A stretch of 40,742 nucleotides of DNA from Actinokineospora pegani. GTDB lineage: Bacteria > Actinomycetota > Actinomycetes > Mycobacteriales > Pseudonocardiaceae. This document shows positions 8,430-39,956 of this stretch, one piece after another. Under the pieces are notes generated by a model. That model had not been told where the DNA came from, did not search any database, and was given only the letters and a program-made list of their open reading frames with translations. Each line of letters opens with the position of its first letter. Position 1 is the stretch's first letter. A program made the position numbers and the translations under genes. Where the stretch lies: NCBI RefSeq assembly GCF_009745975.1, contig NZ_WHOL01000076.1, forward strand, positions 1 through 40,742. Reading direction: 5' to 3'.

Positions 8430-8439
8430 CCCATCCTCA

Positions 8440-9471: not shown

Positions 9472-9480
9472 GCAGGCGCA

Positions 9481-9515: not shown

Positions 9516-9549
9516 GAATCAACACCGGCCCGCAGGCGCTGCAGGTGGG

Positions 9550-10572: not shown

Positions 10573-10660
10573 CGGGGATGACGGCCGTCCGCGGCAGGCA
10601 GGCGAGCCGCGTCTGAGAAGATGATCCGGTGGACGAGACCGTTCGGACGGCAGCCGTGCG

Positions 10661-15669: not shown

Positions 15670-16410
15670 TCAGAAGAACTCGTCCAGCAGCAGGTAGAAG
15701 TGCAGGCGCTGGGCGTCCTCGGCCGTGCCGTACTCGGTGAGGACGCCGGGGCCGAGGTCCCGCACGAGCAGGGACAGGTCGCGCCACCGGTCGGCGCGGC
15801 CCAGCCTGCCCACATCGATCAGCCCGGTGACCCGGCCGGTGCCCGGGTCGACCAGGACGTTGTCCGCGCCCAGGTCGCCGTGGCAGGTGACCAGGTCCTC
15901 CTCGGGCGCGGGGGTGGCGTCGAGCTCGGCGAGCAGATCGGCCGCCGACCACCCGGCGTGCGCCGGGTCGAGGTCGTCGAGGTCGACCAGGCCCCGTTCG
16001 GTGGCCGTCGCCGCCCACGCCCGCGCGGCGGGCAGCGACAGGTCGAACGGGCAGTCCTCGACGGCGTGCAGCTCGCGCGCCAGTTCCGCGACCGGGCCCA
16101 GCACCAGCCCCTTGTCCACAGTGGAGGCTGGAACGCCCGGCACGGCCAGTGTCACCAGCCACGAGAGGCTGTCGTGACCACCGACCTCCACCACCTCGGG
16201 AACCGGGAAGCCCTTGCCGCGCAACCACTCCAACCGCTGCGCCTCGCCCGCCGGGTGGAACCGGCGGTCCTGCTCGCGCCGAGGGGGCGTGGTCTTGACG
16301 TAGTGCGTGTGCTTGCCCTCGACCCGGTACACCCGGGTCCCGTACGACCGGACGGCGACCGTGCGCCACCGCCCGGGCAGCGCGGGCAGCGACAGGGCCG
16401 GGGCGTTCAC
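15670..16410 (-). CDS. Aminoglycoside 3'-phosphotransferase-type kinase, APH(3')-like, self-resistance
   Basis: This 246-residue protein shows the aminoglycoside kinase core: a conserved N-lobe lysine near VYRVEGKHTHYVKT, the catalytic motif CHGDLGADNVL (Asp179, Asn184), and the metal-binding Asp199 in GLIDVGRLGRADRWRD. It ends in HFYLLLDEFF, the C-terminal signature of APH(3') enzymes from neomycin-type producers. It would transfer phosphate from ATP to the 3'-hydroxyl of a 4-substituted DOS aminoglycoside and so protect the host or mask an intermediate. It is slightly shorter than usual (about 260-270). The GTG start overlaps the aminotransferase stop (GTGA). An APH(3') implies that the product, or an intermediate, keeps a 3'-hydroxyl, consistent with no deoxygenation genes being visible. 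Confidence 0.87.
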   Translation of the reverse strand: MNAPALSLPALPGRWRTVAVRSYGTRVYRVEGKHTHYVKTTPPRREQDRRFHPAGEAQRLEWLRGKGFPVPEVVEVGGHDSLSWLVTLAVPGVPASTVDKGLVLGPVAELARELHAVEDCPFDLSLPAARAWAATATERGLVDLDDLDPAHAGWSAADLLAELDATPAPEEDLVTCHGDLGADNVLVDPGTGRVTGLIDVGRLGRADRWRDLSLLVRDLGPGVLTEYGTAEDAQRLHFYLLLDEFF

Positions 16411-17750
16411 TCCACCACCGGTGTCGCCGAGGTGCCCGGCCCCGGGGTGCCCCGGCCGATCAGCTCGACGGTCTCGGCGAGGCGGGCCATCGCGGGCCCG
16501 GTGTCGACCGGGGACCCGCCGAACGCGTCGAGGGCGAACTTGCTCCGCAACCGCTCCGGCAGCTCACCCGCCTCGACGTCGGTGCGCGCGGCGACCTGCC
16601 TGGCGCCCTTCTCGAACGCCTCCAGCGCGTGGTCCACCTCGGCCTGGCCGAACGCGGCGGTCACCATCTGGGTCCCGCTGTCCTCGAACCACGCGCCGTG
16701 GGTGTACGCGGCGGCGTAGATGTCCCAGGACAGCTCCTCGGAGGCGGTGACGACGTCGAACATCATGTCCGGGCCCGCGACGTGCGCGGCGATGCCGACC
16801 GAGGCCAGCACGTCGCGCATGCCGTCCTTGAGCGCGCGGCCCATCCGCTCGGAGTGCTCGTGCACCGACCCGTCCTCGATCTCGTCCAGCACCGCCAGCG
16901 CGGCGAACATGGGCGTGATCTCGCGGTTGTAGGTGCCCGCGATCCCGGCGGCGTCGTAGTGGTCCATCAGCTCCCGGCCGCCCAGGACCGCGGCGATGGC
17001 GTGCCCGTTGGCGATGCCCTTGCTCATCGTGACCATGTCCGCGCGCACCCCGCCGGTGCCGTTGAGCCCGCGCGACCCCCAGCGCAGCGCGGTGATCACC
17101 TCGTCGAGGATGAACAGCACGCCGTGCTCGGCGCACAGCCGCGACACCCGGTGGTGCCACTCGAGGTCGAACCACGCGGGCTCGGGGGTGAGGATCACCG
17201 CGGCGACGTCCGAGCCGAACTCGGTGAGCAACCGGCGCAGCGCGGTCTCGCTGTAGCCGAAGTTCGCCACCCGCGTCCTCGGGTCGAAGCCCATGTTGCG
17301 GTAGGGGCGCTGCCACTCGAACCACCCGTGGTACCCGGCGGTCAGCACCAGGTCGCGGCCGGTGGCGGCGCGCGCGATCTGGATGGCCGCGGTCGTCGCC
17401 TCCGAGCCGGACTTGCAGAAGACCGCCTTCTCCCCGGCCGGGTAGCGCGCGCACAGCCGCTCGGCCAGCTCCAACCGCTGCGGGGTGATCGTGCTGGCGA
17501 ACACCGCGCCGTGGTCGCGCACCGAGCGCACCACGGCCTCGACGACGGCCGGGTGCCGGTTGCCCAGCAGCAGCGCGCCGCTGGCCGCGGTCACGTCGAG
17601 CACGCGGTTGCCCTCCAGGTCGCGCATCCACGACCCGTCGGCGCTGTGGAACACCGACCCGAACCGGGTTCCCACGTCGAACCGCTCGGCGGCGGTGACC
17701 CGCCGCGCCCTGTCGATCGCGGCGGCGTTGGACTCGGCGACGGCCGTCAT
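16407..17750 (-). CDS. Class III PLP aminotransferase 2 (BtrB/Neo18-like)
   Basis: This 447-residue paralogue of the enzyme at 12345-13688 has the same length and the same PLP lysine (residue 244, MSKGIANGH). It shares AVFCKSGSEATTAAIQIARA, YHGWFEW and FILDEVITALRWG. It opens the six-gene minus operon, with an ATG preceded by GGGAGGAAA. One paralogue should convert the 6'-oxo intermediate to the 6'-amine; the other could aminate a second oxidised carbon. A longer reading (start at 17783) adds a short histidine-rich leader before the good ribosome site and is not used. Confidence 0.88.
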   Translation of the reverse strand: MTAVAESNAAAIDRARRVTAAERFDVGTRFGSVFHSADGSWMRDLEGNRVLDVTAASGALLLGNRHPAVVEAVVRSVRDHGAVFASTITPQRLELAERLCARYPAGEKAVFCKSGSEATTAAIQIARAATGRDLVLTAGYHGWFEWQRPYRNMGFDPRTRVANFGYSETALRRLLTEFGSDVAAVILTPEPAWFDLEWHHRVSRLCAEHGVLFILDEVITALRWGSRGLNGTGGVRADMVTMSKGIANGHAIAAVLGGRELMDHYDAAGIAGTYNREITPMFAALAVLDEIEDGSVHEHSERMGRALKDGMRDVLASVGIAAHVAGPDMMFDVVTASEELSWDIYAAAYTHGAWFEDSGTQMVTAAFGQAEVDHALEAFEKGARQVAARTDVEAGELPERLRSKFALDAFGGSPVDTGPAMARLAETVELIGRGTPGPGTSATPVVE

Positions 17751-17833
17751 CGGTTTCCTCCCAGGAAGGTGGAGATGGTGCACAATGGAGTGAAGGTGGT
17801 TTTCCCAGTAATACCCGAGAAACGAGGGCGCGA
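17751..17833. promoter_or_regulatory. Short divergent promoter region between aminotransferase 2 and the unknown plus-strand gene
   Basis: These 83 bases must hold the promoters of the six-gene minus operon and the plus gene at 17834. On the plus strand TAATAC (17809-17814) is a plausible -10 hexamer about 20 bases before the GTG, but no good -35 is seen. No palindrome stands out. Confidence 0.3.
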
Positions 17834-18712: not shown

Positions 18713-20283
18713 ACGTCGCGCAGCAGCCGGTGCGCGGTGCGCAGCGCGACGGCCTGGATGGTCAGCGTGGGGTTGACCCCGCCGGGGAACGGCAGCACGG
18801 CGCCGTCGCCGACATGGACGTTGTCGGCGTCGTGCAGCCGCCCGTCGGTGTCGGTGACGCTGGTGGCCGGGTCCTCGCCCATGCGGCAGGTGCCGTGCAG
18901 GTGGCTGCTGCCCAGCGCCCAGCCGGAGGCCTCGCGCACCGTGACGGTGCAGCCCGCCGCGGACAGCGCGCGCTCCGCCTGCCCCAGCACGTGCTCCAGC
19001 CTGGCCAGGTCGCGCGGGTGCGCCTGGTAGTCCATGAGCACGTCCGGCACCCCGTGCGCGTCGGTCCCCGGTCCCAGCCGCACCCGGTTGCCCGGCTGCG
19101 GCTCGTCGGCGACCAGCGCCTCGACCCGGACCAGTTGCTCGCTGGCGCGCAGCCGGAACGGCCGCTCCGGGCGCGCCTCGTACAGCAGCCCGCCCAACCC
19201 GCCCGGCGCGGCCGGGTCCTCGTACAGGTCGGTGACCGCGCAGGTGGAGAACGGGCCGAGGCCCATCGTGGCGCTCTCGCCCGGCCCGCCGTTGTAGCGG
19301 TAGCCGACGACGTACTCGCTGAGCTTGAAGCACAGCCCCCGGCCGACGAGGTCGCCGGTGTTGCCCAGGCCCATCGGGTACCGGTCGCCGGTGGAGCGCA
19401 GCAGCAGCGCGGCCGACTGCACGGCGTTGGCGCACACGACGAACCGGCGCGCCCGCACCTCGTACCGCGCGCCGGTGTCGACGCGCACGCACTCCAGCGC
19501 CGTCGCCGTGCGCCCGGCGGTGCGCAGCCGCACCGCCTTGAGCCCGGCGAACAGCCGCGCGCCCCGGCGCAGCGCCGGGTCGAGGAAGCGCAGCGCGTCG
19601 CCCTTGGCGCCGATCGGGCACTTGCGGCAGATGCACGGGGCGTCCGCCTCGCACGCCGGTCTGCCCAGGTGCCCGCGGGTGTTGAGGGCGAGCGGGGTGG
19701 CGAACGGCGACCACCCCAGCGCGCTCGCCCCGTCCGCCAGCAGCGCGCCCTCGGCGGAGCGGGCCACCGGCGGCAGCGGGTACGGCCTGCTCGACGGCGG
19801 CAGCGTGGGGTCGGCCCCCGGCTCGCCCGCCACTCCGAGGAGCTGCTCGACCGCGGTGTAGTACGGCTCCAGCTCGTCGTAGCCGAACGGCCAGCGCAGC
19901 GGCAGCTCCGCGGCGCCCAGCGCGGTCTCGGCGTCGAAGTCGACCGGCCGGTTACGGAAGAACGCGCCGCCGTAGAACAGCGTGCCGCCACCGACGTTGC
20001 AGGTCGTCCACGGGTAGCCGATCTTGCCCCAGGTCCCGTTCTCCTGGCGGACCCACGCCGCCTCGGAGTCGGCGAGCAGGTCGTCGTAGGAGACCCCGTC
20101 GACGACGTGGCCGCCCTGCTCGACCACGGCCACCGACAACCCCGCGCCCGCGAGCGCCCAGGCGGTCAGCGCGCCGGACGCCCCGCTGCCCACCACGCAC
20201 ACGTCGTAGGCCTCGGCCAGATCCTCCTGGGTCGGCGCCGGTCCGAGGTCGACCCGGGGCCCCTCGCCCCGGGCAGCGGTCAC
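18637..20283 (-). CDS. GMC-family FAD oxidoreductase, candidate paromamine 6'-oxidase (BtrQ/Neo11-like)
   Basis: This 548-residue glucose-methanol-choline oxidoreductase has the N-terminal FAD motif VVGSGASGALTAWALAGAG. A mid-protein iron-sulfur-like cysteine cluster with CICRKCPIGAKGDALRFLDP follows, and the C-terminal GMC signature contains HLHGTCRMG and GGVNPTLTIQAVALRTAHRLL. Neo11 and BtrQ oxidise the 6'-hydroxyl of paromamine to the aldehyde, which a class III aminotransferase converts to neamine; both partners are present here. The GTG start overlaps the DOI synthase stop (GTGA), so the two are co-translated. Its 3' end overlaps the convergent unknown gene by 76 bases. Confidence 0.85.
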   Translation of the reverse strand: MTAARGEGPRVDLGPAPTQEDLAEAYDVCVVGSGASGALTAWALAGAGLSVAVVEQGGHVVDGVSYDDLLADSEAAWVRQENGTWGKIGYPWTTCNVGGGTLFYGGAFFRNRPVDFDAETALGAAELPLRWPFGYDELEPYYTAVEQLLGVAGEPGADPTLPPSSRPYPLPPVARSAEGALLADGASALGWSPFATPLALNTRGHLGRPACEADAPCICRKCPIGAKGDALRFLDPALRRGARLFAGLKAVRLRTAGRTATALECVRVDTGARYEVRARRFVVCANAVQSAALLLRSTGDRYPMGLGNTGDLVGRGLCFKLSEYVVGYRYNGGPGESATMGLGPFSTCAVTDLYEDPAAPGGLGGLLYEARPERPFRLRASEQLVRVEALVADEPQPGNRVRLGPGTDAHGVPDVLMDYQAHPRDLARLEHVLGQAERALSAAGCTVTVREASGWALGSSHLHGTCRMGEDPATSVTDTDGRLHDADNVHVGDGAVLPFPGGVNPTLTIQAVALRTAHRLLRDVYGADSSRLNLEPRYATTSATAETA

Positions 20284-21476
20284 CGGGCCGCCCCGGTCGG
20301 CTCCAGCACCCTGGTCTGCACCGCGACCAGCGCGGCGCGCACCTCCTCCAGGGTGACCGGCACCAGCGGCAACTGCGGATCACCGGCGGGGGAGCCGAGG
20401 TCGCGCAGCAGCACGAAGGCCAGCGAGTCGGGCGCCAGCGCCAGGTACCCGCGCTTGTTGTCGTCGCGCACCACCGCGAGCACGTCGTCGATCGAGACGC
20501 CCTCGGGCAGCCGCACCGGGGCGCCGAGCGCGGCGACCACCTCGTGGTGCACCTCCGCGTCCGCCGGGCTCAACCAGCCGCGGGCCAGGCTGATCGTGGC
20601 CGCGACGAGCATCCCGAACGCGATCGCCTCGCCGTGCGACACCCCCTCCGCGCCGCGCAGGCGGTGGTCCGCCAGCTCCACCGCGTGGCCGACGGTGTGC
20701 CCGTACTCCAGGACCAGCCCGCCGCGCTGCTCCCGGGTGTCGTCGACGGTCACCCTGGACTTGGCGGCGATGCTCTCCTCCAGCAGCCACAGCAGCGACT
20801 CGGGGGTGGCCAACGTGCCCTCGGCCAGCACCTTGCGCAGTGTCGGCAGCGCCCGCGGCCAGATCGCCAGGCAGTTCTTCGCCGCCTCGCACAGCCCGGA
20901 CCTGAGTTCGCGCTCGGGCAGCGTGGCCAGCATGGCCACGTCGGTGAACACCGCGTGCGGGGCCAGGTACGTGCCGATGTGGTTCTTGCCGATGTCGCTG
21001 TTGATGGCCTGCTTCAACGACAGCACGGAGTCCATCGCCGCGGTCGTCGTCGTCGGGATGTGCACCAGTCGCACGCCGCGGAACATCAGGGCGGCGACCA
21101 CTCCCGCGAGGTTGCCCGGCACGCCGCCGCCGAGGCCGATGACCACCGACCTGCGGGTCGCGCCCGCGGCGAGCGCGCGCCGCAGGCACTCGGAGAGCAC
21201 GGTGAGCGTCTTCATCGACTCACCGGGTGGGTGGCTGAGCACCTCGACCGGGGCCAGCTCCCGCAACCCGGTGAGCAGGCGGCCGCCGTGCAGCCCCAGC
21301 ACCGTGTCGTCGGTGACCACGACGAAGAGGTCCGCGTCCATCGTGGCCAGTTCGTCCAACACCCTGTCCGCGCAGTCGATCCCGTGGTAATACGGGAAGT
21401 CGCTGTCGCCGATCCGGATGCGCCGGGCCTGCCACCGCACCTCGGGTGTGGCGTGGCCGCTGTCGCTAGTCGTCAT
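20280..21476 (-). CDS. 2-deoxy-scyllo-inosose synthase (BtrC/NeoC-like)
   Basis: This 398-residue member of the 3-dehydroquinate synthase superfamily carries out the committed step of 2-deoxystreptamine formation, cyclising glucose 6-phosphate to DOI with catalytic NAD. The NAD loop GGGVPGN (116-122) and zinc ligands Glu197, His260 and His281 are in place. The substrate-defining segment is LSLKQAIN (152-159) followed by GKN, the DOI-synthase type; DHQ synthases have GGKTG-type and valiolone synthases GIKNAVN-type segments here. A notable variation is SGLCEAAKN where SGLGEVVKN is usual. The ATG at 21476 is preceded by GGGAG. It is the first gene of a two-gene operon with the GMC oxidase, facing the 590-base intergenic region. 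Confidence 0.93.
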   Translation of the reverse strand: MTTSDSGHATPEVRWQARRIRIGDSDFPYYHGIDCADRVLDELATMDADLFVVVTDDTVLGLHGGRLLTGLRELAPVEVLSHPPGESMKTLTVLSECLRRALAAGATRRSVVIGLGGGVPGNLAGVVAALMFRGVRLVHIPTTTTAAMDSVLSLKQAINSDIGKNHIGTYLAPHAVFTDVAMLATLPERELRSGLCEAAKNCLAIWPRALPTLRKVLAEGTLATPESLLWLLEESIAAKSRVTVDDTREQRGGLVLEYGHTVGHAVELADHRLRGAEGVSHGEAIAFGMLVAATISLARGWLSPADAEVHHEVVAALGAPVRLPEGVSIDDVLAVVRDDNKRGYLALAPDSLAFVLLRDLGSPAGDPQLPLVPVTLEEVRAALVAVQTRVLEPTGAAR

Positions 21477-27161: not shown

Positions 27162-27992
27162 ATGACCGGGACCACAAGCACCGAAACCGGCCTCGCGATG
27201 TCCGAGGACGAGGTGTTCGCCGATTTCACCCGGCGGGTCGACCTCACGGGCGCCGTCGTGGCCGAGCTCGGCGGGGCGTTCCCGCCCGAGCTGCTCGCCG
27301 CCCACGGGGTGGCCCGCTGGTACTCCATCGACCCGCACCGCCAGGCGCGCCGCGACGCCGACGGCCTGCGCGAGGTGCTGGCCGTGCGCGCCGAGGAGCT
27401 GCCGCTCGCCGACGAGAGCGTCGACGCGGTGTTCACCTGCAACGCCCTTCAGTTCATCGATGTCGGCCCCGCGTTCGCCGAGGCGTTCCGCGTGCTGCGG
27501 CCGGGCGGGCTGGTGCACGCCCACTTCGGACCGATCTGGTCCGGTGTGGACGGACACCAGCTCGAGTACGTGTCCTACCGGGGCAGGCCGCTGACCTTCT
27601 GGGAGGACACGCTCCTGCCGCCGTGGGCGCACCTGCTCTACGGCAAGGAGGAGCTGCGCGCGCTGCTGCGCAGCGGGGTCGACCACGAGCTGGCCGACCT
27701 GCTGGTGTGGCACGTGCACGACAGCCCCACGATCAACCGCGCGTTCTACGAGGACTACCTCGCCGCCGCGGCCGCCTGCGGGCTGGAGGTCGTCGAGGCG
27801 GCCACCGCCGACCAGCTCGACTACCCGATCACCACCCCGGACTACGACCCCGCGCTGCTGCGGGAGCCCGACCTCGCCGCGCTGGCCGCGGCGGTGTCCG
27901 CGCGCCGGGGCGCGCCCACCCGACTCGGCGTTCGCGACGTGCTGCTGGTGCTGCGCAAGCCCGGGTCCCGACCCCGTTCAGGAGACTCATGA
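27162..27992 (+). CDS. Class I SAM-dependent methyltransferase (type 11)
   Basis: This 276-residue protein has a compact Rossmann methyltransferase core: [20 protein letters not shown] (motif I), a Ser-Ile-Asp acidic turn, [24 protein letters not shown] (motifs II-III) and [16 protein letters not shown]. The second half holds an aromatic-rich insertion ([21 protein letters not shown]) that could form the substrate pocket. N- or O-methylation of the aminoglycoside or a precursor is the expected role; the atom is unknown. The ATG at 27162 follows GGAACGGGG; a TTG six bases earlier is in frame but less likely. The stop overlaps the aminotransferase start (ATGA). Confidence 0.82.
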
Positions 27993-29263
27993 GCGACCTC
28001 GCCATCCTCGGCGGAGCCCCCGTGCGGTCCGGCTCCACCTGGCCGGAGTGGCCCCAGTACGACGAGCGCACCGAGCACGAGCTGCTCGCCGCGCTGCGCT
28101 CGCGCCGCTGGGCGGTGAGCTGGCCGACCGACGGCACCCGCTCCAGGGAGCGCCGCTTCGCCGAGGAGTTCGCCCGCTACAACGACGTCCCGCACGCCGT
28201 CAGCGTCGACCACGGGTCCAGCGCCCTGGTCGTGGCGCTCGAGGCGCTCGACATCGGTCCCGGGGACGAGGTCGTCGTCCCGGTCATGACCTGGGTCGCG
28301 CCGGTCGCGGCCGTGCTGCGGGTCGGCGCGCTGCCGGTCGTGGTCGACGTCGACCCGGAGACCGGGTGCCTGACCCCGGAGACCGTGCGCGCGGCGCTGT
28401 CCGAGCGCACCAAGGCGGTCCTGGTCGTGCACCTGGCCGCCACCGTCGCCGACCTCGACGGGTTGCAGCAGGTGACCGAGGAGGCGGGCGTCGCGCTGAT
28501 CGAGGACTGCGCGCAGGCCCACGGCGCCCGCTGGCGGGGCCGCCGGGTCGGCACCTTCGGCCGCGTCGGCTGTTTCAGCTTCCAGGTCGGCAAGGTCCTC
28601 GCGGGCGGCGAGGGCGGCGCGGTCATCACCTCCGACGAGGCGCTGTACCAGCGGATGCAGCAGTTGCGCGCCGACTCCCGCCGCTACGTCGACACCGAGC
28701 TGGCGCCCGGCGACCTCGAGCTGCTGGAGGCGGGCGAGGTCATGGGCGGCAACTACTGCATGTCCGAGCTGACCGCGGGCGTGCTGCTCGACCAGCTCCC
28801 GCGCCTGGACCAGCAGCACGCGCACCGCGACCGGATGGCGGCCGAGCTGGAGCGGGGACTGGCCGCGCTGGGCGACTTCGGGCCCATCCCGGTGCCCGAG
28901 CACGCCGACCAGCGCTCGATCTACGAGTACGGCATCCGGTTCCGCCCCGGCACCTTCGGCGACGTCCCGGTGGAGGCGGTCGCCGAGGCGGTGGGCGCCG
29001 AGCTGGGCATGGCGCTGTGGCCGCCGGACCTGCCGCTGCACCGCAGCGTCATGCTGCACCCGCACACCAAGAACCGGTTCCGGCTGGTGTGGACCGAGCA
29101 GGGCCGCGCCCGCGCGCTCGGCCGCGAGTACCCCGGCGCGGAGACCTACCGCGACACCACGCTGGTCTTCCACCACAAGGAGCTGCTCGGCGGCGAGGAG
29201 GACATGGCGGACCTGGTGCGGGCGGTGGCGAAGGTGCGCGACGCGCACAAGGAGCTGTTGTGA
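27989..29263 (+). CDS. L-glutamine:2-deoxy-scyllo-inosose aminotransferase (BtrS/Neo6-like, DegT fold)
   Basis: This 424-residue DegT/DnrJ/EryC1-type PLP enzyme has the PLP lysine at residue 202 in [17 protein letters not shown]. The N-terminal block [19 protein letters not shown] and the segments [27 protein letters not shown] and VFHHKELLG are characteristic of enzymes that aminate DOI and later amino-dideoxy-scyllo-inosose, delivering both nitrogens of 2-deoxystreptamine from glutamine. With the DOI synthase and Zn dehydrogenase this completes DOS formation. Starts and stops overlap both neighbours by four bases. Confidence 0.9.
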
Positions 29264-30294: not shown

Positions 30295-31755
30295 TCAGCT
30301 GTGCGCGTCGTAGTACCGGCGCAGCGCGGTGTGGATGTCGTCGTCCACGAAGAACAGCAGCTCCGGCGGCGGGACGAAGTCGTGCTCCATCTCGTCGAGC
30401 ATCTGCTTGAACGAGCGGCGGAACTGCTCCTCGATCAGCGGCGGGAAGTCCTCCGGCAGGTGCCAGTCGTGCTCGACGCCGACGGCCATGGTGTGCGTCA
30501 GCGCCGTCTCCAGCGCCTCCTCGCGGGTCATGGTCTGCAGCGGCGGGCGCACCGGGGTGAACACGTCCAACGCGGGGTCGTGCGCCTCGCCGAGGATGCG
30601 CGCGGCCATCTCGTGGGCCAGCATCGGCGACTGGTGCAGGCCGTCGCGGTAGGTGCCGGTCATCATCCACAGCCCCTCGACCCCGGCCCGGCCGAGCAGC
30701 GGGTACCCGTCCAGCGGCACCGGCCGGTTGCCCACGTTGATCTTGAGGATGTGCCCGTTGACGAGGTCGGCGCGCATCTGCCGGATGCCGCTGAGCAGCA
30801 GGTTGACCTCACCGATCGCGGCGGTCGAGATCGGGTGCGGCAGGATCTCGTTGGTGGCGCCCAGGTAGATCACCCCGTCCCCGCGCGGGACGACGTGCAG
30901 CCCGCAGGCGAACGCGCGGTTGGGCGTGCGGATCACGCTGTCGGGGGTCAGGCCGTTCTCGGTGCGGACCAGCAGCGACACGCCGCCGCCGGACACCAGC
31001 GCCGGGATGCGGTCGCGGATGCCGGGGTCGATGGCGGAGAGCAGGTCGTGCGAGGACGCCCCGGCGGCGAGCACCACGGTGTCCGCGGCGAGCACCCGCC
31101 CGCTGCCGCGCAGCGCCACGCCGGTGACCCGGTCGCCGCTGAGCACCAGCTTCTCGATGTGCGCGTCCACCAGCGTCCCGCCCGCGCGGGTGAAGGCCGT
31201 GGGCAGCGCGCGCAGCAGGGCGGGGGTGTCCACGGCGTGCTCGCCGGGGATGAACATCGCCTTGAGCGGGCGGGACTTGGGCTCCGGGGCCAGCCACTGG
31301 ACCTGGTCGGCCTCCAGGTCCTCGTAGGGCTCCTTGTACTCCTCCATCGCCTGCCGGATGGCGGCGTAGCCCGCGCTGTCGATCCCCGGCACGCCGATCG
31401 TGTTGAGGATGACGATGGTCCCGTTGGCGCTGCGGATGCGGGTCTCGTCGGACTCCTCCATGAGCCCCTCGGCCCAGGCGTCCCACATCCCGGTGGCGCG
31501 CACGTCCATCGCCAGCTTCAACCTGCCGTACTCGCTGGCCATCAGCGTCGGCGTCACCTCGCCGAAGCAGCCGTTCATCGCCCCCGCCGCGGTCGAGGCG
31601 GCCAGCGGCCTGCCCGCCTCGCCGACGACGGCGACCCGCTGGCCCCGGCGCGCCAGCACCAGGCCCAGGGACAGGCCGAGCCCGCCGTTGCCGACGACGA
31701 TCGCGTCGAACCCGGAGGGGGGCGCGTCGGTTGTCACGTCAGAGTTCTCGCTCAT
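30295..31755 (-). CDS. DAO-family FAD-dependent amine/amino-acid oxidase
   Basis: This 486-residue protein carries an N-terminal dinucleotide motif (VVGNGGLGLSLGLVLARRG, Gly22 to Gly27) and the DAO-fold landmarks DTPALLRALPTAFTRAGG, ADTVVLAAGASSHDLL and YPLLGRAGVEGLWMMTGTYRDG. These place it near glycine oxidase (ThiO) and D-amino-acid oxidases, which oxidise C-N bonds with oxygen. The C-terminal 90 residues extend past the usual fold end. It lies 63 bases downstream of the PLP decarboxylase in the same operon, so an amine or amino acid made by that pair is the obvious substrate. The ribosome site (GGGTG) is weak. Confidence 0.82.
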   Translation of the reverse strand: MSENSDVTTDAPPSGFDAIVVGNGGLGLSLGLVLARRGQRVAVVGEAGRPLAASTAAGAMNGCFGEVTPTLMASEYGRLKLAMDVRATGMWDAWAEGLMEESDETRIRSANGTIVILNTIGVPGIDSAGYAAIRQAMEEYKEPYEDLEADQVQWLAPEPKSRPLKAMFIPGEHAVDTPALLRALPTAFTRAGGTLVDAHIEKLVLSGDRVTGVALRGSGRVLAADTVVLAAGASSHDLLSAIDPGIRDRIPALVSGGGVSLLVRTENGLTPDSVIRTPNRAFACGLHVVPRGDGVIYLGATNEILPHPISTAAIGEVNLLLSGIRQMRADLVNGHILKINVGNRPVPLDGYPLLGRAGVEGLWMMTGTYRDGLHQSPMLAHEMAARILGEAHDPALDVFTPVRPPLQTMTREEALETALTHTMAVGVEHDWHLPEDFPPLIEEQFRRSFKQMLDEMEHDFVPPPELLFFVDDDIHTALRRYYDAHS

Positions 31756-31818
31756 GCGGCACCCACTGGTGAGAGGAACGGAAAGGGAGACGGCGGGCGC
31801 GGCCCGCCGGACGGCGGG

Positions 31819-33012
31819 TCACCTGGCGGGCCCGCCGGGCCGCACGGCGGTCATCGACTGCCGCGCGACCCCGTTGAACTCTGCGCTGAGTTCCATCGAG
31901 TACCCCGACACGTTGCCGAGCACGACGTGGTCCCCCGCGCGGGGCGTGGGCGCTGTCCGCGCCACCGGGACCACTTCGGACTCCTCGAGCCAGTCCTCCT
32001 CGAAGCACGTGCGGCCGCACACCCGCCACGGACCGCCCGGCGGCGGTCCGAGCACCGGGACGCGCAGCAGGTCCGACCACTGCAGGTGGCTCATCAGCCC
32101 GATGTCGAGCACCAGCGCGGTGAACGCGCGCATCGGCTTGACCTCGAGCACGGGGGCCACCAGCGCGGCGCAGTCGGTCAGCCACCACCGGCCCGGCTCG
32201 AGCACCACCTCGACGTCGGGCCCGGCCGCCGCGCGCACCGCGCCGAACAGCGACCCCAGGCCCTCGGGCGTCGGGTCGGCGAACACGCCGCCGCCCAGGT
32301 CGAGCGCGGCCAGCGCGATCCCGTGCCTGCGCGCGGCCGCGGTGATAGCCCGTGCGGCGAAGGTGAACGCCTCGCGGGTGTTCTCCTCCGAACCGTTGTG
32401 CGTGTGCAGCCAGCGGATCTCGCAGCCGTGCGCGGCGGCGGTCTCCCTGGCCAGCGGCAGGTGGTCCAGCGCGATGCCGAAGCGGCTCGGCCGCCACAGC
32501 GGGATGTGCTCGGGGACCTCGACCCCGTCGAGGTTGACCCGCAGGCCGACGTCGGAGCCGGGGAAGGCCGCGCACAACTCGGCGAGCTGGTCGAGGGAGT
32601 CGCAGTGCCAGCGGTCGACCCGGCCCGCGGCGAAGGCGCCGAACAGCGCGTCCTTCTCGTGCAGCGCCAACGCGGGCGGGGTCAGGCTGATCACACCGCT
32701 GGGCGCGGCGCCCAGCGCGTGCTCGAGCTCCACCGCGTTGGCGACGTCGAACCCGAGCCCGTGCGCCGCGGCCAGCCGCAGCACCCGCGCGTCGGTGCTC
32801 GCCTTGACCGCGCACAGCAGCCGGACGCCGTGCGCGGCCGCGGCCCTGGTCGCGACGTCGTAGCGGCGCTCCAGCGCGTCCAGGTCGAGCACGACGCCCG
32901 CGACGCCGTCCGCGGCGCGCCCGCGCAGCACGTCGGCGAAGGCAGGGGACAGACCCTGCTCCGGCACGTGCACCACACTCCCGGCCACCACCGGTCCACT
33001 CCCGACGGTCAC
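31819..33012 (-). CDS. Fold-type III PLP decarboxylase (Orn/DAP/Arg decarboxylase family; BtrK/Mur23-like logic)
   Basis: This 397-residue enzyme has the PLP lysine at residue 70 (LLCAVKAST) in an N-terminal alanine-racemase-like barrel. The phosphate- and substrate-side motifs are WLHTHNGSEENT and LDLGGGVF, and EPGRWW is also present. The catalytic Cys336 is in GRTCFEEDWL, contributed across the dimer interface in this family. It should decarboxylate an L-amino acid or an amino-acid moiety held on a larger molecule. Butirosin BtrK (acting on an ACP-bound glutamyl chain) and muraymycin Mur23 are precedents; no acyl carrier protein is visible here, which favours a free or aminoglycoside-linked substrate. 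The GTG overlaps the upstream PLP gene stop (GTGA). Confidence 0.86.
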   Translation of the reverse strand: MTVGSGPVVAGSVVHVPEQGLSPAFADVLRGRAADGVAGVVLDLDALERRYDVATRAAAAHGVRLLCAVKASTDARVLRLAAAHGLGFDVANAVELEHALGAAPSGVISLTPPALALHEKDALFGAFAAGRVDRWHCDSLDQLAELCAAFPGSDVGLRVNLDGVEVPEHIPLWRPSRFGIALDHLPLARETAAAHGCEIRWLHTHNGSEENTREAFTFAARAITAAARRHGIALAALDLGGGVFADPTPEGLGSLFGAVRAAAGPDVEVVLEPGRWWLTDCAALVAPVLEVKPMRAFTALVLDIGLMSHLQWSDLLRVPVLGPPPGGPWRVCGRTCFEEDWLEESEVVPVARTAPTPRAGDHVVLGNVSGYSMELSAEFNGVARQSMTAVRPGGPAR

Positions 33013-34400
33013 GGTGCGCTCCCCTCGCTCAAGACCTCGACCACGGTGCGCGCGACGGCCGCGGCGACCTCCGGGTCGTGCATGCCGAAGCACACGCGCA
33101 GCACGGTGTGCGGCTCCTCGCCGGGGTCGTCGGAGCCGTACCAGCTCAGCCCGGTGTAGTGGAAGCCGAAGCTGGCCGACTTCCACACCGGCAGGTCGCG
33201 GGCCTGCGCGCGGCGCTCCAGTTCGGTCAGCCGCACGTCGAAGGCGTCCCACGGCGGCCACGGCGCCGAGCTGCCCGGGTCGGCGGGACCGGGGATGTCG
33301 AGCACGTGGACCTCGACGAAACAGCGGTGGTCGTTGGTCACCACGCGGAAGGCGCCGGCCAGTCCCTCGGCCAGCACGCGCGCGCCTACCCCGTTGGCCG
33401 CGCGCAGCAACCGGTTCGCCGCGCGGGCCCAGTCGTGGTCGGGCAGGCCGAGCGCGTCGAGCAGGCGCAGCGCGGTGGGGGAGGCGCAACCACCGGTGAC
33501 CATCAGGCACTCGGGGATCAGCGCGCGCAACCGCGTCGCCCAGTCCTGCTGCCCGGCCAGGAGCGCCAGCGAGCCGAGTGGGCTGAACTCCAGGCCGAAC
33601 TGGTCGAGCTTGACGTGGCTGCGGATCAGCAGCAGCGGCCGGTCCGGCTCCCCGGCCGGGGGCTGCGCGGTGGAGGCGCAGGTGTTGTCCCAGACGACCA
33701 GCGGGACCTGGCCGGGCGTGGTGGCCGACAGCACGCGACCCACCGCCGCCGCGTCGCCGAACGGCCTGCTGGAGTCGAGGAAGACGACCACCGGGGTGGT
33801 CGAGTCCGTGCCGGTGTGGACGATCTCCTCGATGTCCTGGCAGGTGGTGAATGCCACCCTGGTCAGGTCCATCGACCGGAACAGGACGGCGGTCTCGTGG
33901 TAGAGCCGGTTCGACACCACGCGGACCGGCCCGAGCACCGCCGCGATCCGCGCCACCGCGAGCGCCCACGCGGTGATCGCGGCCATGCCGGTCCGGCTGT
34001 ACCAGACCTGCGCCGGGGTCTGCTCGTCGGTCCACGGGTACGGCCGTGCCCAGGCCGAACCCGCCGCCAGGCGCAGTTCGGCGCGGTCGTAGTCGTACCC
34101 GCACACGCGCTGGTCGGCCGGGTCGGCGTCGCCGATGTAGGACACCGAGGTGCGCCAGGACCCCGCGCTGTCGGCCGCGCGCAGCGCGAGCTGGCGGACC
34201 AGGAACGACCGCCGCACCGCCGCCACCAGCGGCCGGTCCTCGTCGGACCACCACGCGCGTTCCTCGGCCAGGTCGGCGCGGGAGACCCCGGGGCGGGCAG
34301 GGGCGGCCAGCAGCCGGTCCAGCAGCGTGCGCACCTCGGCGGCGAGCCGCGCGCGCTGCGCGCGGCTCGCGGGCGCCGAGATCTGGTCAGGTGAAGGCAA
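33009..34400 (-). CDS. Fold-type I PLP enzyme, cystathionine-synthase-like; possible SAM-dependent aminocarboxypropyl transferase
   Basis: This encodes 463 residues from a TTG at 34400 with a GGGAA site; an upstream ATG would add a proline-rich leader and lies past a good promoter. The fold is shown by WYSRTGMAAITAWALAVARI (PLP-phosphate region), VVWDNTCAST (the Asp that contacts the pyridine nitrogen, as in the Cys/Met metabolism family), SHVKLDQFG with Lys264 as the PLP lysine, and a C-terminal HTVLRVCFGMHDPEVA. Enzymes of this type perform gamma-elimination or gamma-replacement. Coupling to a decarboxylase resembles Mur24/Mur23 of muraymycin, where SAM donates an aminobutyrate unit that is then decarboxylated. 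The function here is inferred; a conventional sulfur amino-acid role is the alternative. Confidence 0.72.
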   Translation of the reverse strand: MPSPDQISAPASRAQRARLAAEVRTLLDRLLAAPARPGVSRADLAEERAWWSDEDRPLVAAVRRSFLVRQLALRAADSAGSWRTSVSYIGDADPADQRVCGYDYDRAELRLAAGSAWARPYPWTDEQTPAQVWYSRTGMAAITAWALAVARIAAVLGPVRVVSNRLYHETAVLFRSMDLTRVAFTTCQDIEEIVHTGTDSTTPVVVFLDSSRPFGDAAAVGRVLSATTPGQVPLVVWDNTCASTAQPPAGEPDRPLLLIRSHVKLDQFGLEFSPLGSLALLAGQQDWATRLRALIPECLMVTGGCASPTALRLLDALGLPDHDWARAANRLLRAANGVGARVLAEGLAGAFRVVTNDHRCFVEVHVLDIPGPADPGSSAPWPPWDAFDVRLTELERRAQARDLPVWKSASFGFHYTGLSWYGSDDPGEEPHTVLRVCFGMHDPEVAAAVARTVVEVLSEGSAP

Positions 34401-34734
34401 GGGCGGTTCCCAAAGGCGGTGGCACGGGGGAGGGAGACAGTAGGGGTGCGGGGGGAGCGACCGGATTGGATAGACGGGGCGTCCCGGAGGTGTGGCGCCG
34501 ATCGTAGAGACGGAGCCCCGGTGTGGCAAGGAAACCAGACCCGCACGTCGGCTTTGTCAAATCGCGCCACACCGTGGGCGAATCCGGTAATGTCAGGCCC
34601 AGTGCGACGGGCGCCCGCGTCGCACGTCCGGTCCCCACCGACCCGTACTTCCGTTCGGGGGAACGGACTTGCTCCACACAGCGCACTCGGTGCCGCTCGT
34701 GGAAGCCGCCGAATGGTGACGGCACACGAATGGA
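34401..34734. other. Divergent intergenic region between the PLP module and the flavoprotein operon
   Basis: This 334-base region holds no supported gene. The minus strand has a clear promoter at 34501-34529. For the plus operon no convincing promoter or ribosome site was found before 34735. The segment 34554-34593 is AT-richer and contains TTGTCA without a partner at normal spacing. Confidence 0.45.
34501..34529 (-). promoter_or_regulatory. Promoter of the PLP-enzyme operon
   Basis: Read on the minus strand, TTGCCA (34529-34524) and TACGAT (34506-34501) are 17 bases apart. Transcription should start near 34494, giving a leader of about 95 bases before the TTG at 34400. Confidence 0.5.
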
Positions 34735-36669
34735 ATGGCGGTGGCGGCTTTGGCCCCCAGGGAGACTGCATCCTCGCGCGCCTCGGCGCTGCGGGAACAC
34801 CTCGACCCGACCCCCGGTTCGATCGGGGTCAAGGAGGAGAACCTCGCCGGTGTCCGCGATCCGGGCTTCCTGGCCCTGGGTCTCGGCGGGACGAACATGA
34901 TGGCGATGCTGTGGAGCATCGCGATGGGCAAGCGGGCGGTCGGCGTCGAGCTGCGCGGCGACCCCGCCCTGGGCATCCACTGGAACATCCGCGAGGACCT
35001 CTGGCACCACCTCGGCCTGATCGACGCCCTGATGGAGCAGCGCTACGGCGTCGACCGGCTGCCCAGGCGCGGCGACGGCAAGATCTTCCGGCTCGCGGAG
35101 ACCTTCTACAGCGCCCAGACCAAGGGCGGGGCGTACTACTCCGACGAGGTCATCAGCGGCTTCCTCGAGTCCTTCGGCGAGCACGGCCACGCCGCGGGCC
35201 GCATCTACCACACCGAGTTCATCGACGACCGGTGGAAAGATGGCGGGCCCTGCCGGTCGGTGACCATCGTCGAGCCGCCGAAGCCGCCGGACCAGCCGCA
35301 CACCGAGACCATCGGCCGCCCGGTCGCCGAGGTGCTCGACGGCCCGTCGACGTTCCAGATCGGCGCGTCCGAGGCGCTGGTGCTGCTGCGCCGCTACCTC
35401 GAGTACATGGAGGAGATGGACCTCGAGGCCGGTGTCGAGCCGCGGGTGCGCCTGTTCCTGACCCACCGCGTCGTCGCGGGCGAGCCGGGGGAGTCCAGCT
35501 ACATCAAGTGGTTCCGCCGCGAGGACGGCTTCATCGGCCTGCCCGACGGGCGCAAGCAGGTGCGCATCGAGCAGGTCCGCGAGCTCGACCACCGCGGCAA
35601 GTTCCGCAGGCAGCGCACGCCCGGCACCCAGGTCATCGACATCGGCACGCCCGAGCTGTTCATGATCGCCCAGGGCTTCTCCAGCGACGACGCCGACCGG
35701 CTCGGCTTCCGCCAGGACGACGTCAAGGTCGACCACCACGACGGGCACGGCCCGGTCGTGGCCCAGGCCGACTACCTGGCCGGGCTGATGGAGATCAACG
35801 TCGGCGGCAGGCTGCGCCGCCGGATCGCCTCGGAGTTCGACCGCGACGGCAACGAGTACTGGGTCCGCCAGATCGCGGTGGGGCACGAGGAGGACGCCGA
35901 GGTCGGCTGGATCCTGGTGCAGGTGCCCGACTTCAAGACCTTCGACCCGGTGCTCGCCGGACTCGTCCCCGAGGGCACCGGCCGCAAGTCCAAGGAGTAC
36001 CTGGGCGCCCACCAGCAACTGCTGCGCGAGTACTACCTCGAGCAGGTCGCGATGATCACCGAGATCCCGCTTGCCGAGCTGGAGGAGGTCGAGATCCCCT
36101 ACGGCCCCAAGCTGTTCAGCCTGGTCGAGCGCATCGGCCCGGACCCCCGCGTCGCGGGCAACGGCGTCGTCGCGGGCGACACCTTCGGCAACGGCCACTT
36201 CATGACCAGCGGCGGCGCGATGACCGGCATGGTCGGCCACGCGCACCGCGTGCTGCGCTACTGGCAGGGCCGCGAGGAGGGCATGTCCACCGAGGACGCC
36301 ATCCTGCGGCTCGCGGCGGAGATCAAGGAGGACACGCTCGGCTGGCTGCAGGTCAGCTCCCAGGAGTTCAGCCAGGCGGTGCCGATCAACTTCGGCCAGG
36401 AGCGCATCAGCGCGATCGAGCGGTCCACCGGCCGCAGCAGCGCCCAGCGCGCCAACGCCATCGACGCGACCCGCCGCCACCGCCACTCGCTGGTGCCGCT
36501 GAACCCGTCGGACTGGCGCCGCCTGGTCGTGCACCCCGGCAAGCTCTACACCAACGACCTGCCCCCGCTCAGCGACGTGCACCCCGCCCTGCGCGACAAC
36601 ACCCCCGCCGACCCCGCTCCCGTGGCGGCCCCGGAGCCGGAGCGCGTGCTGGTGGGTGAGCAGGTTTGA
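34735..36669 (+). CDS. Putative Rossmann-fold FAD-dependent oxidoreductase A of unknown substrate
   Basis: This encodes 644 residues from an ATG with a weak ribosome site. A dinucleotide-binding beta-alpha-beta unit near the N terminus reads FLALGLGGTNMMAMLWSIAM and ends at VGVEL, with Gly49, Gly51, Gly52 and the ribose-binding Glu72. The end of the protein has NGVVAGDTFGNGHFMTSGG, which looks like the Gly-Asp motif holding the flavin ribityl chain in FAD monooxygenases. I do not recognise the family more closely. It shares extended similarity, for example EYWVRQIAVGHE followed by an acidic stretch and FDPVLAGL, with the C-terminal 596 residues of the next protein, so the two are paralogues. 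Its stop overlaps the start of that gene (TGATG). FAD use and an oxidation role are inferred from motifs. Confidence 0.6.
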   Translation: MAVAALAPRETASSRASALREHLDPTPGSIGVKEENLAGVRDPGFLALGLGGTNMMAMLWSIAMGKRAVGVELRGDPALGIHWNIREDLWHHLGLIDALMEQRYGVDRLPRRGDGKIFRLAETFYSAQTKGGAYYSDEVISGFLESFGEHGHAAGRIYHTEFIDDRWKDGGPCRSVTIVEPPKPPDQPHTETIGRPVAEVLDGPSTFQIGASEALVLLRRYLEYMEEMDLEAGVEPRVRLFLTHRVVAGEPGESSYIKWFRREDGFIGLPDGRKQVRIEQVRELDHRGKFRRQRTPGTQVIDIGTPELFMIAQGFSSDDADRLGFRQDDVKVDHHDGHGPVVAQADYLAGLMEINVGGRLRRRIASEFDRDGNEYWVRQIAVGHEEDAEVGWILVQVPDFKTFDPVLAGLVPEGTGRKSKEYLGAHQQLLREYYLEQVAMITEIPLAELEEVEIPYGPKLFSLVERIGPDPRVAGNGVVAGDTFGNGHFMTSGGAMTGMVGHAHRVLRYWQGREEGMSTEDAILRLAAEIKEDTLGWLQVSSQEFSQAVPINFGQERISAIERSTGRSSAQRANAIDATRRHRHSLVPLNPSDWRRLVVHPGKLYTNDLPPLSDVHPALRDNTPADPAPVAAPEPERVLVGEQV

Positions 36670-39600
36670 TGGACAACGAGGAGCCCCGCCCCAGGGGTGA
36701 CGCGTTCGGCTCCCGCGGCGAGACCGTCGTCACCCAGAACGTGCACCGGGAGCTGCGCACGCTCCGGCAGCGCCAGTTGGCGCTGCTGGTGCTGTGCGTC
36801 AGCTCGCTGGTCATCATCCTGGACGCGTCGGTCGTCAACGTGGCGCTGCCGTCGATCCAGGCCGACCTCGGGTTCGAGCAGCACAACCTGGCCTGGGTCG
36901 TCAACGCCTACCTGGTGCCCTTCGGCGGCATCCTGCTGTTCGCGGGCAGGCTCGGCGACCTGGTCGGGGCCAAGCGGGTGTTCATCAGCGGCCTGGCCCT
37001 GTTCACCGCCGCGTCCGTCGCCTGCGGCCTGGCGCAGAACCAGGCCATGCTCATCGGCGCCCGGTTCGTCCAGGGCATCGGCGGCGCGCTGGCCGCGGCC
37101 GTGGTGCTGGGCATGATCGTCCGGATGTTCCCCAAGCCCGCCGAGCAGACGCGCGCGCTGTCGTTCTACGCGTTCGTCGCCTCCTCCGGCGCGGTCATCG
37201 GCGTCCTGCTCGGCGCGCTGCTCACCGACGCCGTGAGCTGGAACTGGGTCTTCTTCGTCAACGTGCCCATCGGCGTGGCCGCGCTGGTGGCGGCCAGGGC
37301 GCTGCTGGTGGACGAGCGCGACGAGGACACCAAGGGCGTCGACCTGCCCGGCACCGTGCTGCTCGTCGGCTCGCTGACGCTGCTGGTCTACGCGGCCGTG
37401 CAGACCACGGAGAGCGGCTGGCTCTCCGCGCGCACCGGCCTGCTGTTCGGCGGCGTGGTCGTCGGGCTCGCGCTGTTCACCTGGTGGCAGGCCAAGGCCC
37501 GCGACCCGCTGCTGCCGCTGTCGGTGTTCCGCGGCCGCAACGTCGCGGGCCCCAACCTGGTGATCACGCTGATGGTGTGCGGCCCGACCGCCACCTTCTT
37601 CTTCATCGCCCTGCACCTGCAGCAGGTCGAGCGCCTGTCGGTCATGCAGGTCGGCCTGGCCTTCCTGCCGATGGCGCTGGTGGTCGCGGTGGTGTCGCTC
37701 AAGCTGACCCCGAGGATGGTCAAGAAGGTCGACGCCAAGGGCGTGCTGCTGCTCGGCCTGGGCAGCATGGCGCTCGGCCTGGCGTGGCTGGGCAGGCTCG
37801 GCGCGGACAGCGGCTACCTGCTCGACGTGCTGCCCGGCCTGCTGCTCATCGGCCTGGGCGCCGGTCTCGGCATGCCCGCCTCGCTCGGCGTGGCGGTCGC
37901 GGACGCGACCCGGTCCGACAGCGGCGTGCGGTCCGGCCTGGTCAACACGACCCAGCAGGTCGGCGGCGCGCTCGGCCTGGGCGTGCTCGCCGCGCTGGCC
38001 GCCGGGCGCACCGAGTCGCGGCTGGCCGCGGGCGAGTCCGCCGAGGTCGCGCTGACCTCCGGGTTCAGCCTCGGCTTCCTCGTCGCGGCCGGGGTCGTGG
38101 CGCTGGCGCTCGGGCTGGCCACGGTGGTCATCGAGCCCGCGGTGCCCAAGACCGCGCCCGCCGAGCTGGACCCCACCCGGCGCGGCATCGTCGAGCACCG
38201 CGAGGACCTGACCGGAGCGGTCGACCCGGACTTCCTGGCCATCGGCCTCGGCGGGGCCAACATGATGTCCATGCTGTGGTCGATCGCGCACGGCAAGCGC
38301 TCCGTCGGCGTCGAGCTGCGCGGCGACCCGGCCGCGGCCGTCATGCACTGGACCGTGCAGGAGGACCTGTACCACCACCTCGCCGAGATCGACCGGATGA
38401 TCCTGGAGCGCTACGGCGCCGACCGGGTGCCGAGGCTCGACGGCGGCAGGCCGTTCCTGCTGCACGAGTGCATGTACAACCCGGACAACAGCTCCGCCGA
38501 CGCCAGGGCCGACGAGGTGCTGACCGTCTACGCCGGTGACGCGCACGTCGCGGGCCTGGTCCGCTCCACCGAGCTGGTCGACGACCGGGTGGTCGACGGC
38601 GTCGCGCAGCGCACCCTGACCAGGCAGGGCCCGGTCGGGTGCCCCGGCCCGCCGGACCCGGCGAAGGTCGGCAGGCCGCTGGAGGTGGTGCTCGGGGAGC
38701 CGCCCAGGTTCCTGGCGGGCGCCAGGGAGCTGGTGCTGATCCTGCGCCGGTACCTGCAGGCCCTGGAGCGCATGGACCTCGAGTCCGGGCACACCCCGCG
38801 GTGCAGGCTCTTCCTGTACCACCGGGTCATCCCCGCGGGCTCCGGCAGGGGCCGCCGCGCCGCGACCGCGGAGGAGGGCTTCTCCCGGGAGGCCGACGGC
38901 AGGCTGCGCGTGCGGATCGAGGGCGTGCGCGAGCTGGAGAGCAAGGGCTCCTACCGCCGGGTCCGCAGGCCGGGCACCGAGACCATCGACCTCGGGGTGC
39001 CCGAGCTGTTCGTCATCGCCGAGGGCCCGGAGGCCGAGGACGCCGCCCGCCTCGGCTTCCGCCAGGAGCCGATGCTGGTCGACCGCGGCGACGGCCTCGG
39101 CGCGGTCCCGGCCCAGGCCGACTACCTCGTCGGGCTGATGACGATCTACCTGGACAGCCGCTACCGCAGGCGCATCTGCTCGGAGTTCGACCGGACCGGC
39201 GCGGAGTACTGGGTCCGCCAGATCGCCGTCGGGCACGAGGACGACGCCGAGATCTCCTGGATCGCGGTGGAGGTCCCGGACTTCATGACCTTCGACCCGG
39301 TGCTCGCCGGGCTCTGCCCGCCGGGCACGGCGGTCGGCTCGCGCGAGTTCTACGCCGGCTACCAGCACCTGGTCCGCGAGTACTACCTGGACCAGGTGGC
39401 CGTGCTGACCGAGCTGCCCAGGCGCGAGGTCGGCCGCATCAGCGTCGCCCGCACCCCGCAGCTCGTCACGGTGACCGCCCAGTCCGGTGTGGACGCCGTG
39501 GTCGCGCCGAACGGCGTGGTCGCGGGCGACTCCTTCGGCACGTCGGACTTCCTGCTCAGCGGCGGGTTCACCGCCGGGGGCATCGGGCACGCCTGCCGGG

Positions 39601-39956
39601 TGCACGCCTACTGGACCGACCGGGCGGCGGGTGTGCCCGCCGAGCAGGCCACGCGCGCGCTCGGCGACCGGATCAAGGCCGACACCGAGGCGTGGCTGCG
39701 CACCACCGTCGACAACTTCGCCCAGCCGCCCGCGCCGGACGACCCGGCCTGGCGGGCGTCGGTGCTGGAGATGACCCGGTCCCAGCGCCGGGCCGTCGCC
39801 CCGGTCACCCACCGCGACGAGTGGAGCAGGCTGCACGTGTTCGTCGGCAGGCTGCACAGCTACCCGCTGCCGCCGATGGACCACCGGCACCCGGACCACC
39901 GCGACCCGGACGGGGCCAAGCCGAGCTGGGAGGACTTCGAGGCGGTCCGGGGATGA
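36669..39956 (+). CDS. DHA2-type MFS exporter fused to a FAD-dependent-oxidoreductase-like domain
   Basis: This 1095-residue protein is one open frame. Residues 1-490 are a 14-TM drug:H+ antiporter: a basic N terminus, DASVVNVALPSIQADLGF at TM1, GRLGDLVGAKRVF as motif A, SSGAVIGVLLGALLTD as the antiporter motif C region, and NTTQQVGGALGLGVLAALA late in the sequence. About ten residues after the last helix (IEPAVPKTAPAE), residue 500 begins the flavoprotein domain (LDPTRRGIVEH), with Gly526, Gly528, Gly529 and Glu549, through NGVVAGDSFGTSDFLLSGG near the end. The topology would put this domain in the cytoplasm. No stop, frameshift or strong internal start separates the halves. The protein may oxidise a late intermediate and export it. 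Substrate and flavin binding are unproven. Confidence 0.78.
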   Translation: MDNEEPRPRGDAFGSRGETVVTQNVHRELRTLRQRQLALLVLCVSSLVIILDASVVNVALPSIQADLGFEQHNLAWVVNAYLVPFGGILLFAGRLGDLVGAKRVFISGLALFTAASVACGLAQNQAMLIGARFVQGIGGALAAAVVLGMIVRMFPKPAEQTRALSFYAFVASSGAVIGVLLGALLTDAVSWNWVFFVNVPIGVAALVAARALLVDERDEDTKGVDLPGTVLLVGSLTLLVYAAVQTTESGWLSARTGLLFGGVVVGLALFTWWQAKARDPLLPLSVFRGRNVAGPNLVITLMVCGPTATFFFIALHLQQVERLSVMQVGLAFLPMALVVAVVSLKLTPRMVKKVDAKGVLLLGLGSMALGLAWLGRLGADSGYLLDVLPGLLLIGLGAGLGMPASLGVAVADATRSDSGVRSGLVNTTQQVGGALGLGVLAALAAGRTESRLAAGESAEVALTSGFSLGFLVAAGVVALALGLATVVIEPAVPKTAPAELDPTRRGIVEHREDLTGAVDPDFLAIGLGGANMMSMLWSIAHGKRSVGVELRGDPAAAVMHWTVQEDLYHHLAEIDRMILERYGADRVPRLDGGRPFLLHECMYNPDNSSADARADEVLTVYAGDAHVAGLVRSTELVDDRVVDGVAQRTLTRQGPVGCPGPPDPAKVGRPLEVVLGEPPRFLAGARELVLILRRYLQALERMDLESGHTPRCRLFLYHRVIPAGSGRGRRAATAEEGFSREADGRLRVRIEGVRELESKGSYRRVRRPGTETIDLGVPELFVIAEGPEAEDAARLGFRQEPMLVDRGDGLGAVPAQADYLVGLMTIYLDSRYRRRICSEFDRTGAEYWVRQIAVGHEDDAEISWIAVEVPDFMTFDPVLAGLCPPGTAVGSREFYAGYQHLVREYYLDQVAVLTELPRREVGRISVARTPQLVTVTAQSGVDAVVAPNGVVAGDSFGTSDFLLSGGFTAGGIGHACRVHAYWTDRAAGVPAEQATRALGDRIKADTEAWLRTTVDNFAQPPAPDDPAWRASVLEMTRSQRRAVAPVTHRDEWSRLHVFVGRLHSYPLPPMDHRHPDHRDPDGAKPSWEDFEAVRG

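Follow-up and report, generated by a model that had tools for sequence, protein, structure and literature searches.

Overlapping genes for two pyridoxal phosphate enzymes as a possible aminopropylation module in an aminoglycoside gene cluster of Actinokineospora pegani

What might two overlapping genes for pyridoxal 5'-phosphate (PLP) enzymes contribute to an aminoglycoside biosynthetic gene cluster? The question is raised by a stretch of 40,742 nucleotides from the soil bacterium Actinokineospora pegani (assembly GCF_009745975.1, contig NZ_WHOL01000076.1, positions 1 to 40,742; the whole stretch is referred to here as the window), which belongs to a genome of 6.44 Mb. The first gene of the pair, here called PLP-I, lies on the reverse strand at 33009..34400 and encodes a PLP enzyme with the cystathionine-synthase fold which, on the strength of its structural model and invariant residues, is proposed to be a 3-amino-3-carboxypropyl transferase, while the second, at 31819..33012 on the same strand, encodes a fold-type-III PLP decarboxylase (PF02784, 4.5e-20) that is proposed to convert the aminocarboxypropyl group to an aminopropyl group. 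The reading that we adopt, to which we attach slightly better than even confidence, is that the pair represents an optional two-step aminopropylation module of an aminoglycoside derived from 2-deoxy-scyllo-inosose (DOI), probably a 3',4'-dideoxy compound. In such a pathway PLP-I would form an aldimine with S-adenosylmethionine (SAM) or an O-acylhomoserine as the presumed donor, expulsion of the gamma leaving group would generate a vinylglycine-type intermediate, and an amine, belonging either to the aminoglycoside itself or to an aminoacyl arm carried by it, would add at C-gamma to yield an N-(3-amino-3-carboxypropyl) derivative, from which the decarboxylase would then remove CO2 to leave N-(3-aminopropyl).

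The PLP-I protein comprises 463 amino acids when read from a TTG codon at 34400, a putative start with in-frame alternatives on both sides, and the decarboxylase comprises 397 amino acids from a GTG start; the coding frames of both genes are backed by codon-position GC content, which rules out the pair as chance open reading frames. An earlier reading of this DNA from its letters alone (hereafter the sequence-only reading) had described a four-base overlap of the two genes, and this was found as a GTGA stop/start overlap at 33009..33012 (reverse strand), as expected for translational coupling. A four-base ATGA or GTGA overlap of the pair occurs in four of five independent loci, the fifth, in genome G002, having an overlap of 19. 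The same reading placed both genes under one promoter, and indeed a single sigma-70-like match, by consensus only (shuffles gave 0.0), is located at 34501..34529 on the reverse strand, approximately 100 bases upstream of the pair, with no terminator-like site in 31600-34800.

The assignment of PLP-I to the fold-type-I, cystathionine-synthase-like enzymes, first made by the sequence-only reading, agrees with its predicted structure (pLDDT 87.9), with Foldseek and with VIA-align, the rows of which are of the cysteine/methionine-metabolism type; by model and structure comparison the protein displays the characteristic fold of the cystathionine gamma-synthase superfamily. Residue 235 is the first of the motif VVWDNTCAST, and RSHVKLDQ contains Lys264. 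Residues K264, D238, Y167, E169 and R435 are invariant in all 31 members of alignment A1, which is made up of the window protein plus 30 of the 34 proteins retrieved (P0010, P0030, P0033 and P0034 were omitted); K264, D238 and Y167 were placed by profile alignment and R435 by motif only. We take the lysine to form the Schiff base, the aspartate to bind PLP, the tyrosine to serve stacking and gamma-chemistry, and the arginine to bind a carboxylate. The invariant arginine suggests that an amino-acid carboxylate is present while PLP-I acts, which argues for transfer first and decarboxylation thereafter. Among named relatives, the one nearest to this protein belongs to Actinokineospora sp. G85 (95% identity).

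In the decarboxylase, Lys70 and Cys336 are as the sequence-only reading gave them, and K70, H205, E272 and C336 are invariant in all five sequences compared; both enzymes of the pair thus retain their catalytic residues. The lysA model reaches 78.9 bits on this protein versus a cut-off of 297.9, so that by score it is not LysA. In ornithine and lysine decarboxylases an acidic residue after the catalytic cysteine serves the distal amine; the residue at this place is Phe337 in all five of the enzymes compared and Asp in the lysine/ornithine decarboxylase 5gjm, and the window enzyme thus lacks the acidic residue characteristic of ornithine/lysine decarboxylases.

Full-length copies of PLP-I were found in 4 of the 390 genomes of the taxonomic family, its own included, and copies of the decarboxylase (E <= 1e-40) in the same four genomes; a partial match in G074 (E 3.1e-4, spanning approximately 100 residues) was excluded from this count. 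Strains bearing the pair include A. terrae, A. diospyrosa and A. hoggarensis. In all four genomes the two genes are adjacent and reside within a homologous DOI-derived aminoglycoside cluster, and the association with aminoglycoside genes that had been proposed for the window therefore extends to every full-length occurrence in the family. A class-wide sample of 394 genomes returned only the window's own copy, a genome-contig scan with the single protein returned eight stretches and no relatives, and searches of viral contigs and plasmids yielded nothing useful. That these are ordinary methionine- or lysine-pathway enzymes located here by chance, as their fold families (those of MetB/MetC and LysA) might suggest, is very improbable, given the rarity of the pair and the presence elsewhere in the genome of five strong PF01053 genes, a lysA gene over its cut-off and a metX-like gene (400.5 bits, model cut-off 500), and this candidate was rejected. 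An ordinary methionine-pathway enzyme or a transaminase, the identities that the sequence-only reading had set against its own proposal, were not borne out.

Several observations weigh against aminopropylation as the function of the pair, and they are best considered together with the rival explanations on which they bear. The window PLP-I protein reaches no Pfam cut-off, that of PF01053 included (PF01053 is matched by 4 of the 31 family members at E <= 0.01); known gamma-enzymes match its sequence weakly, with unrelated FeoB chains scoring alike; its profile alignment is of modest quality (E 8.1e-5, probability 60.9) and contains flawed rows among its five templates, L029 being in the wrong frame and L028 and L030 including upstream non-gene stretches; in Foldseek, aminotransferases and KAPA synthases rank shortly below the top rows; and nothing in the cluster was recognised as a gene for making a donor. 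With such structures near the top, and in a divergent family where an invariant glutamate, as read from the alignment, takes the position of Cys116 of methionine lyase, PLP-I might instead perform another fold-type-I reaction (transamination, beta- or gamma-elimination, or carbon-carbon bond formation), the decarboxylase acting on its product to give an arm other than 3-aminopropyl. This is rather unlikely, as the VIA-align rows are of the cysteine/methionine-metabolism kind and the tyrosine assigned to gamma-chemistry, the lysine, the aspartate and the arginine are all invariant.

The fifth locus of the coupled pair presents a further difficulty. In Actinomadura madurae (L022 13764-19535, L023 18-9467) the pair comes after an A-PCP gene, which it overlaps by four bases, and its surroundings, with this A-PCP protein, a condensation domain and proteins resembling Asn synthase, look like a peptide-synthetase locus. 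The only DOI-synthase-like match in that genome (37% identity) is on another contig and is probably its 3-dehydroquinate synthase. A GMC oxidoreductase (46%) and an aminotransferase (39%) related to those of the window lie near the Actinomadura pair. The occurrence in a locus of this kind indicates that the pair is portable and that it might act on an acceptor other than a sugar amine. The same chemistry could accordingly be exerted on a small amino acid such as glycine, free or carrier-bound, to give an N-(3-aminopropyl)amino acid or a diamine that subsequently becomes an acyl arm. For LolC an amino acid, proline, is the proposed acceptor (PMC4274035). A glycyl arm is present on fortimicin-type drugs. 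We regard this alternative as unlikely: the scan of the window genes brought to light neither a carrier protein nor an amide-forming enzyme, although several conserved window genes belong to no known family and could conceal one. An A-PCP neighbour, together with the relationship of the decarboxylase to BtrK (1.3e-9), also raises the improbable case in which the decarboxylase, like BtrK in butirosin biosynthesis, uses an amino acid bound to an acyl carrier protein and the pair produces an aminoacyl side chain. Against it, most LysA and ornithine decarboxylase chains outscore both BtrK and the carboxynorspermidine decarboxylases, and no carrier protein was found in the window cluster or, by BLAST with window genes and with no carrier-domain scan there, in the pair-bearing clusters.

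Aminopropylation of an aminoglycoside amine, the reading that we retain, is also burdened by the divergence of the window pair from its counterparts in G002, G010 and G019, the identities being 46-48% for PLP-I and 55-58% for the decarboxylase, as compared to 68-90% and 70-88%, respectively, among those three genomes. The window pair departs from its counterparts to a far greater degree than do the core genes, and in a quick tree the window PLP-I groups with metagenome proteins P0002-P0005; the pair in the window may thus have been exchanged again, as if from another lineage, and in view of this divergence the acceptor or the donor could differ between clusters.

The scaffold on which the pair would act is indicated by the remainder of the cluster. 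The window encodes a DOI synthase (20280..21476, reverse strand; closest solved relative a DOI synthase at 4.5e-68, followed by 3-dehydroquinate synthase at 4.2e-42) and an aminotransferase of the L-glutamine:DOI type (DegT; 27989..29263, forward strand; closest to solved L-glutamine:DOI aminotransferases at 6.1e-103), and further holds a zinc-dependent alcohol dehydrogenase, a GT4 glycosyltransferase, a PIG-L deacetylase, a GMC oxidoreductase, two class-III aminotransferases, two radical SAM enzymes and two methyltransferases. At 15670..17783 (reverse strand) the gene of an APH(3')-like kinase overlaps by four bases that of a GenB3/GenB4-like aminotransferase, which matches the Protein Data Bank (PDB) entries 7lm0 (3.3e-141) and 7lld (3.1e-139), each a C-6' aminotransferase and presumably GenB3/GenB4, whereas NeoN matches at 1.2e-40. 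The 3',4'-dideoxy sugar of gentamicin is made by GenP and GenB3, a route which the authors regard as common to fortimicin and istamycin (PMC7941887), and the presence of this GenP/GenB3-like pair in the window suggests 3',4'-dideoxygenation rather than resistance alone. Combined with the homologue of N-formimidoyl fortimicin A synthase described below, it favours a scaffold that is probably 3',4'-dideoxy and fortimicin/istamycin-like. The complete neamine gene set of the sequence-only reading holds in so far as neamine-type genes are broadly present, but a plain neamine scaffold is probably not what they make.

That the pair is an optional tailoring module follows from related clusters in G003 (of the same genus as G002), G344 and G355, in which both genome-wide searches listed no pair; those of G344 and G355 are partly covered, and for G344 the 40 kb available, with an edge that cuts through the cluster, showed no class-III aminotransferase, APH or PIG-L gene. 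A core tree of ten concatenated proteins, built for six clusters, places G002 as the sister of G003 (100/100) and rejects a grouping of all four pair-bearing clusters (approximately unbiased (AU) test, p 6e-73). The trees of two companion genes have a different shape, joining the four pair-bearing clusters (100/99) and rejecting the pairing of G002 with G003 (p 0.00096 and p 4.3e-6, respectively): the first is the homologue of N-formimidoyl fortimicin A synthase (30295..31755, reverse strand; 8gri, 2.3e-112), of which a variant is co-inherited with the pair, and the second a 644-residue flavoprotein-like protein without Pfam match (34735..36669, forward strand). The tested clades were chosen after the identities were known, and the trees hold six genomes, G355 being left out owing to its partial coverage. 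As the companion genes group with the pair and not with the core, the pair, the formimidoyl-synthase homologue and the 644-residue flavoprotein-like gene are suggested to form a co-inherited cassette.

The formimidoyl-synthase homologue is related to the characterized enzyme over its full length, and its reactive cysteine would be Cys284 in the aligned RAFACGLH, an equation with C281 of Orf1 that assumes a 20-residue tag in the 8gri chain. Enzymes of the Orf1 type add a glycine-derived formimidoyl group (PMC10156733). The homologue could be responsible for capping one of the amines in the decorated product. Homologues at E <= 1e-60 occur in 32 of the 390 family genomes and possibly mark other formimidoylated products; 28 of the 32 are without the pair, which weakens the idea that formimidoylation depends on it. 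The 644-residue protein is probably a flavoprotein, since Foldseek aligned its model with FAD monooxygenases, a label that is tentative as the model is weak (pLDDT 61.7); among the candidates scored it has 525 relatives at E <= 0.001, some of the 120 listed carrying FHA or ATP-grasp domains. Downstream, an exporter of the major facilitator superfamily (MFS; 36666..39956, forward strand; PF07690, 2.2e-49) is fused to a second copy of the 644-residue type, its C-terminal half aligning with the same places as that protein; this fusion is unbroken in the pair-bearing clusters, while in G003 and G344 its halves match separate places. Taken together, the transferase, decarboxylase, formimidoyl synthase, flavoprotein-like enzyme and flavoprotein-fused exporter could serve a fortimicin/istamycin-type aminoglycoside with an N-(3-aminopropyl) arm, the terminal amine of which is capped as a formimidoyl amidine to give an arm of polyamine type, with PLP-I representing a new amine-alkylating branch of the cystathionine fold, but we hold this fuller picture to be doubtful.

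Two-step aminopropylation would in itself be an already known logic, with precedents in Mur24/Mur23, MccD/MccE and LolC. Mur24 and Mur23, likewise two PLP enzymes, transfer an aminocarboxypropyl group from SAM to an amine, the acceptor being a nucleoside, and then decarboxylate it (PMC10491745, PMC9814697). The kinship of PLP-I with Mur24 that the sequence-only reading had drawn found no support, as a review describes Mur24 as similar to 1-aminocyclopropane-1-carboxylate (ACC) synthases, another fold-type-I branch (PMC10491745), whereas PLP-I models with the cystathionine fold and, among the families listed, has its best structural rows with the cystathionine type; the two would differ by the published description of Mur24 rather than by sequence, and the comparison appears to hold as chemistry but not as family. 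The LolC/LolD pair of loline biosynthesis in Epichloe seems a closer precedent. Here a gamma-class and an alpha-class PLP enzyme are encoded side by side, and a condensation of proline with homoserine has been proposed for LolC (PMC3585121, PMC4274035). It differs in being fungal, in using an amino-acid acceptor and in having no aminoglycoside, and the likeness is one of enzyme class. LolD is a fold-type-III enzyme resembling ornithine decarboxylase. In microcin C, MccD and MccE also achieve aminopropylation via aminocarboxypropyl transfer, with decarboxylation before or after it, but the review counts MccD among the SAM-dependent aminocarboxypropyl transferases rather than among PLP enzymes, and the substrate is a peptide-nucleotide (PMC10491745). 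The window resembles the fortimicin and istamycin clusters in the formimidoyl-synthase homologue beside the pair and in the dideoxygenation genes of the GenP/GenB3 type, the latter being reported as common to fortimicin and istamycin (PMC7941887). In the available portions of the open-licence literature, most subscription papers being outside its scope, no report of an aminopropylated antibiotic of this aminoglycoside class was found. To our knowledge, no aminopropyl arm occurs in the fortimicin/istamycin group.

If the proposal is correct, aminoglycosides N-alkylated with an amine-bearing arm already occur in nature, the arm being comparable to side chains that chemists introduce in semi-synthetic drugs; the two enzymes could then serve as a tool for aminoglycoside N-alkylation, and the cystathionine-synthase fold would be extended to amine alkylation in bacterial secondary metabolism. 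Since otherwise related clusters differ in whether they carry the pair, a comparison of their products would put the claim directly to the test.

Some minor observations concern genes elsewhere in these clusters. The window genes at 8317-11209 (AurF-like, luciferase-like and hexapeptide-transferase genes) had no match in the fetched stretches of related clusters and for this reason probably lie outside the cluster. The pair-less clusters of G344 (L042 1549-2556) and G003 (L044 705-1685) harbour an extra radical SAM protein with approximately 30% identity to the second such protein of the window. Finally, a 292-residue protein encoded at 17834-18712 on the forward strand, without Pfam match, is kept in related clusters with and without the pair.

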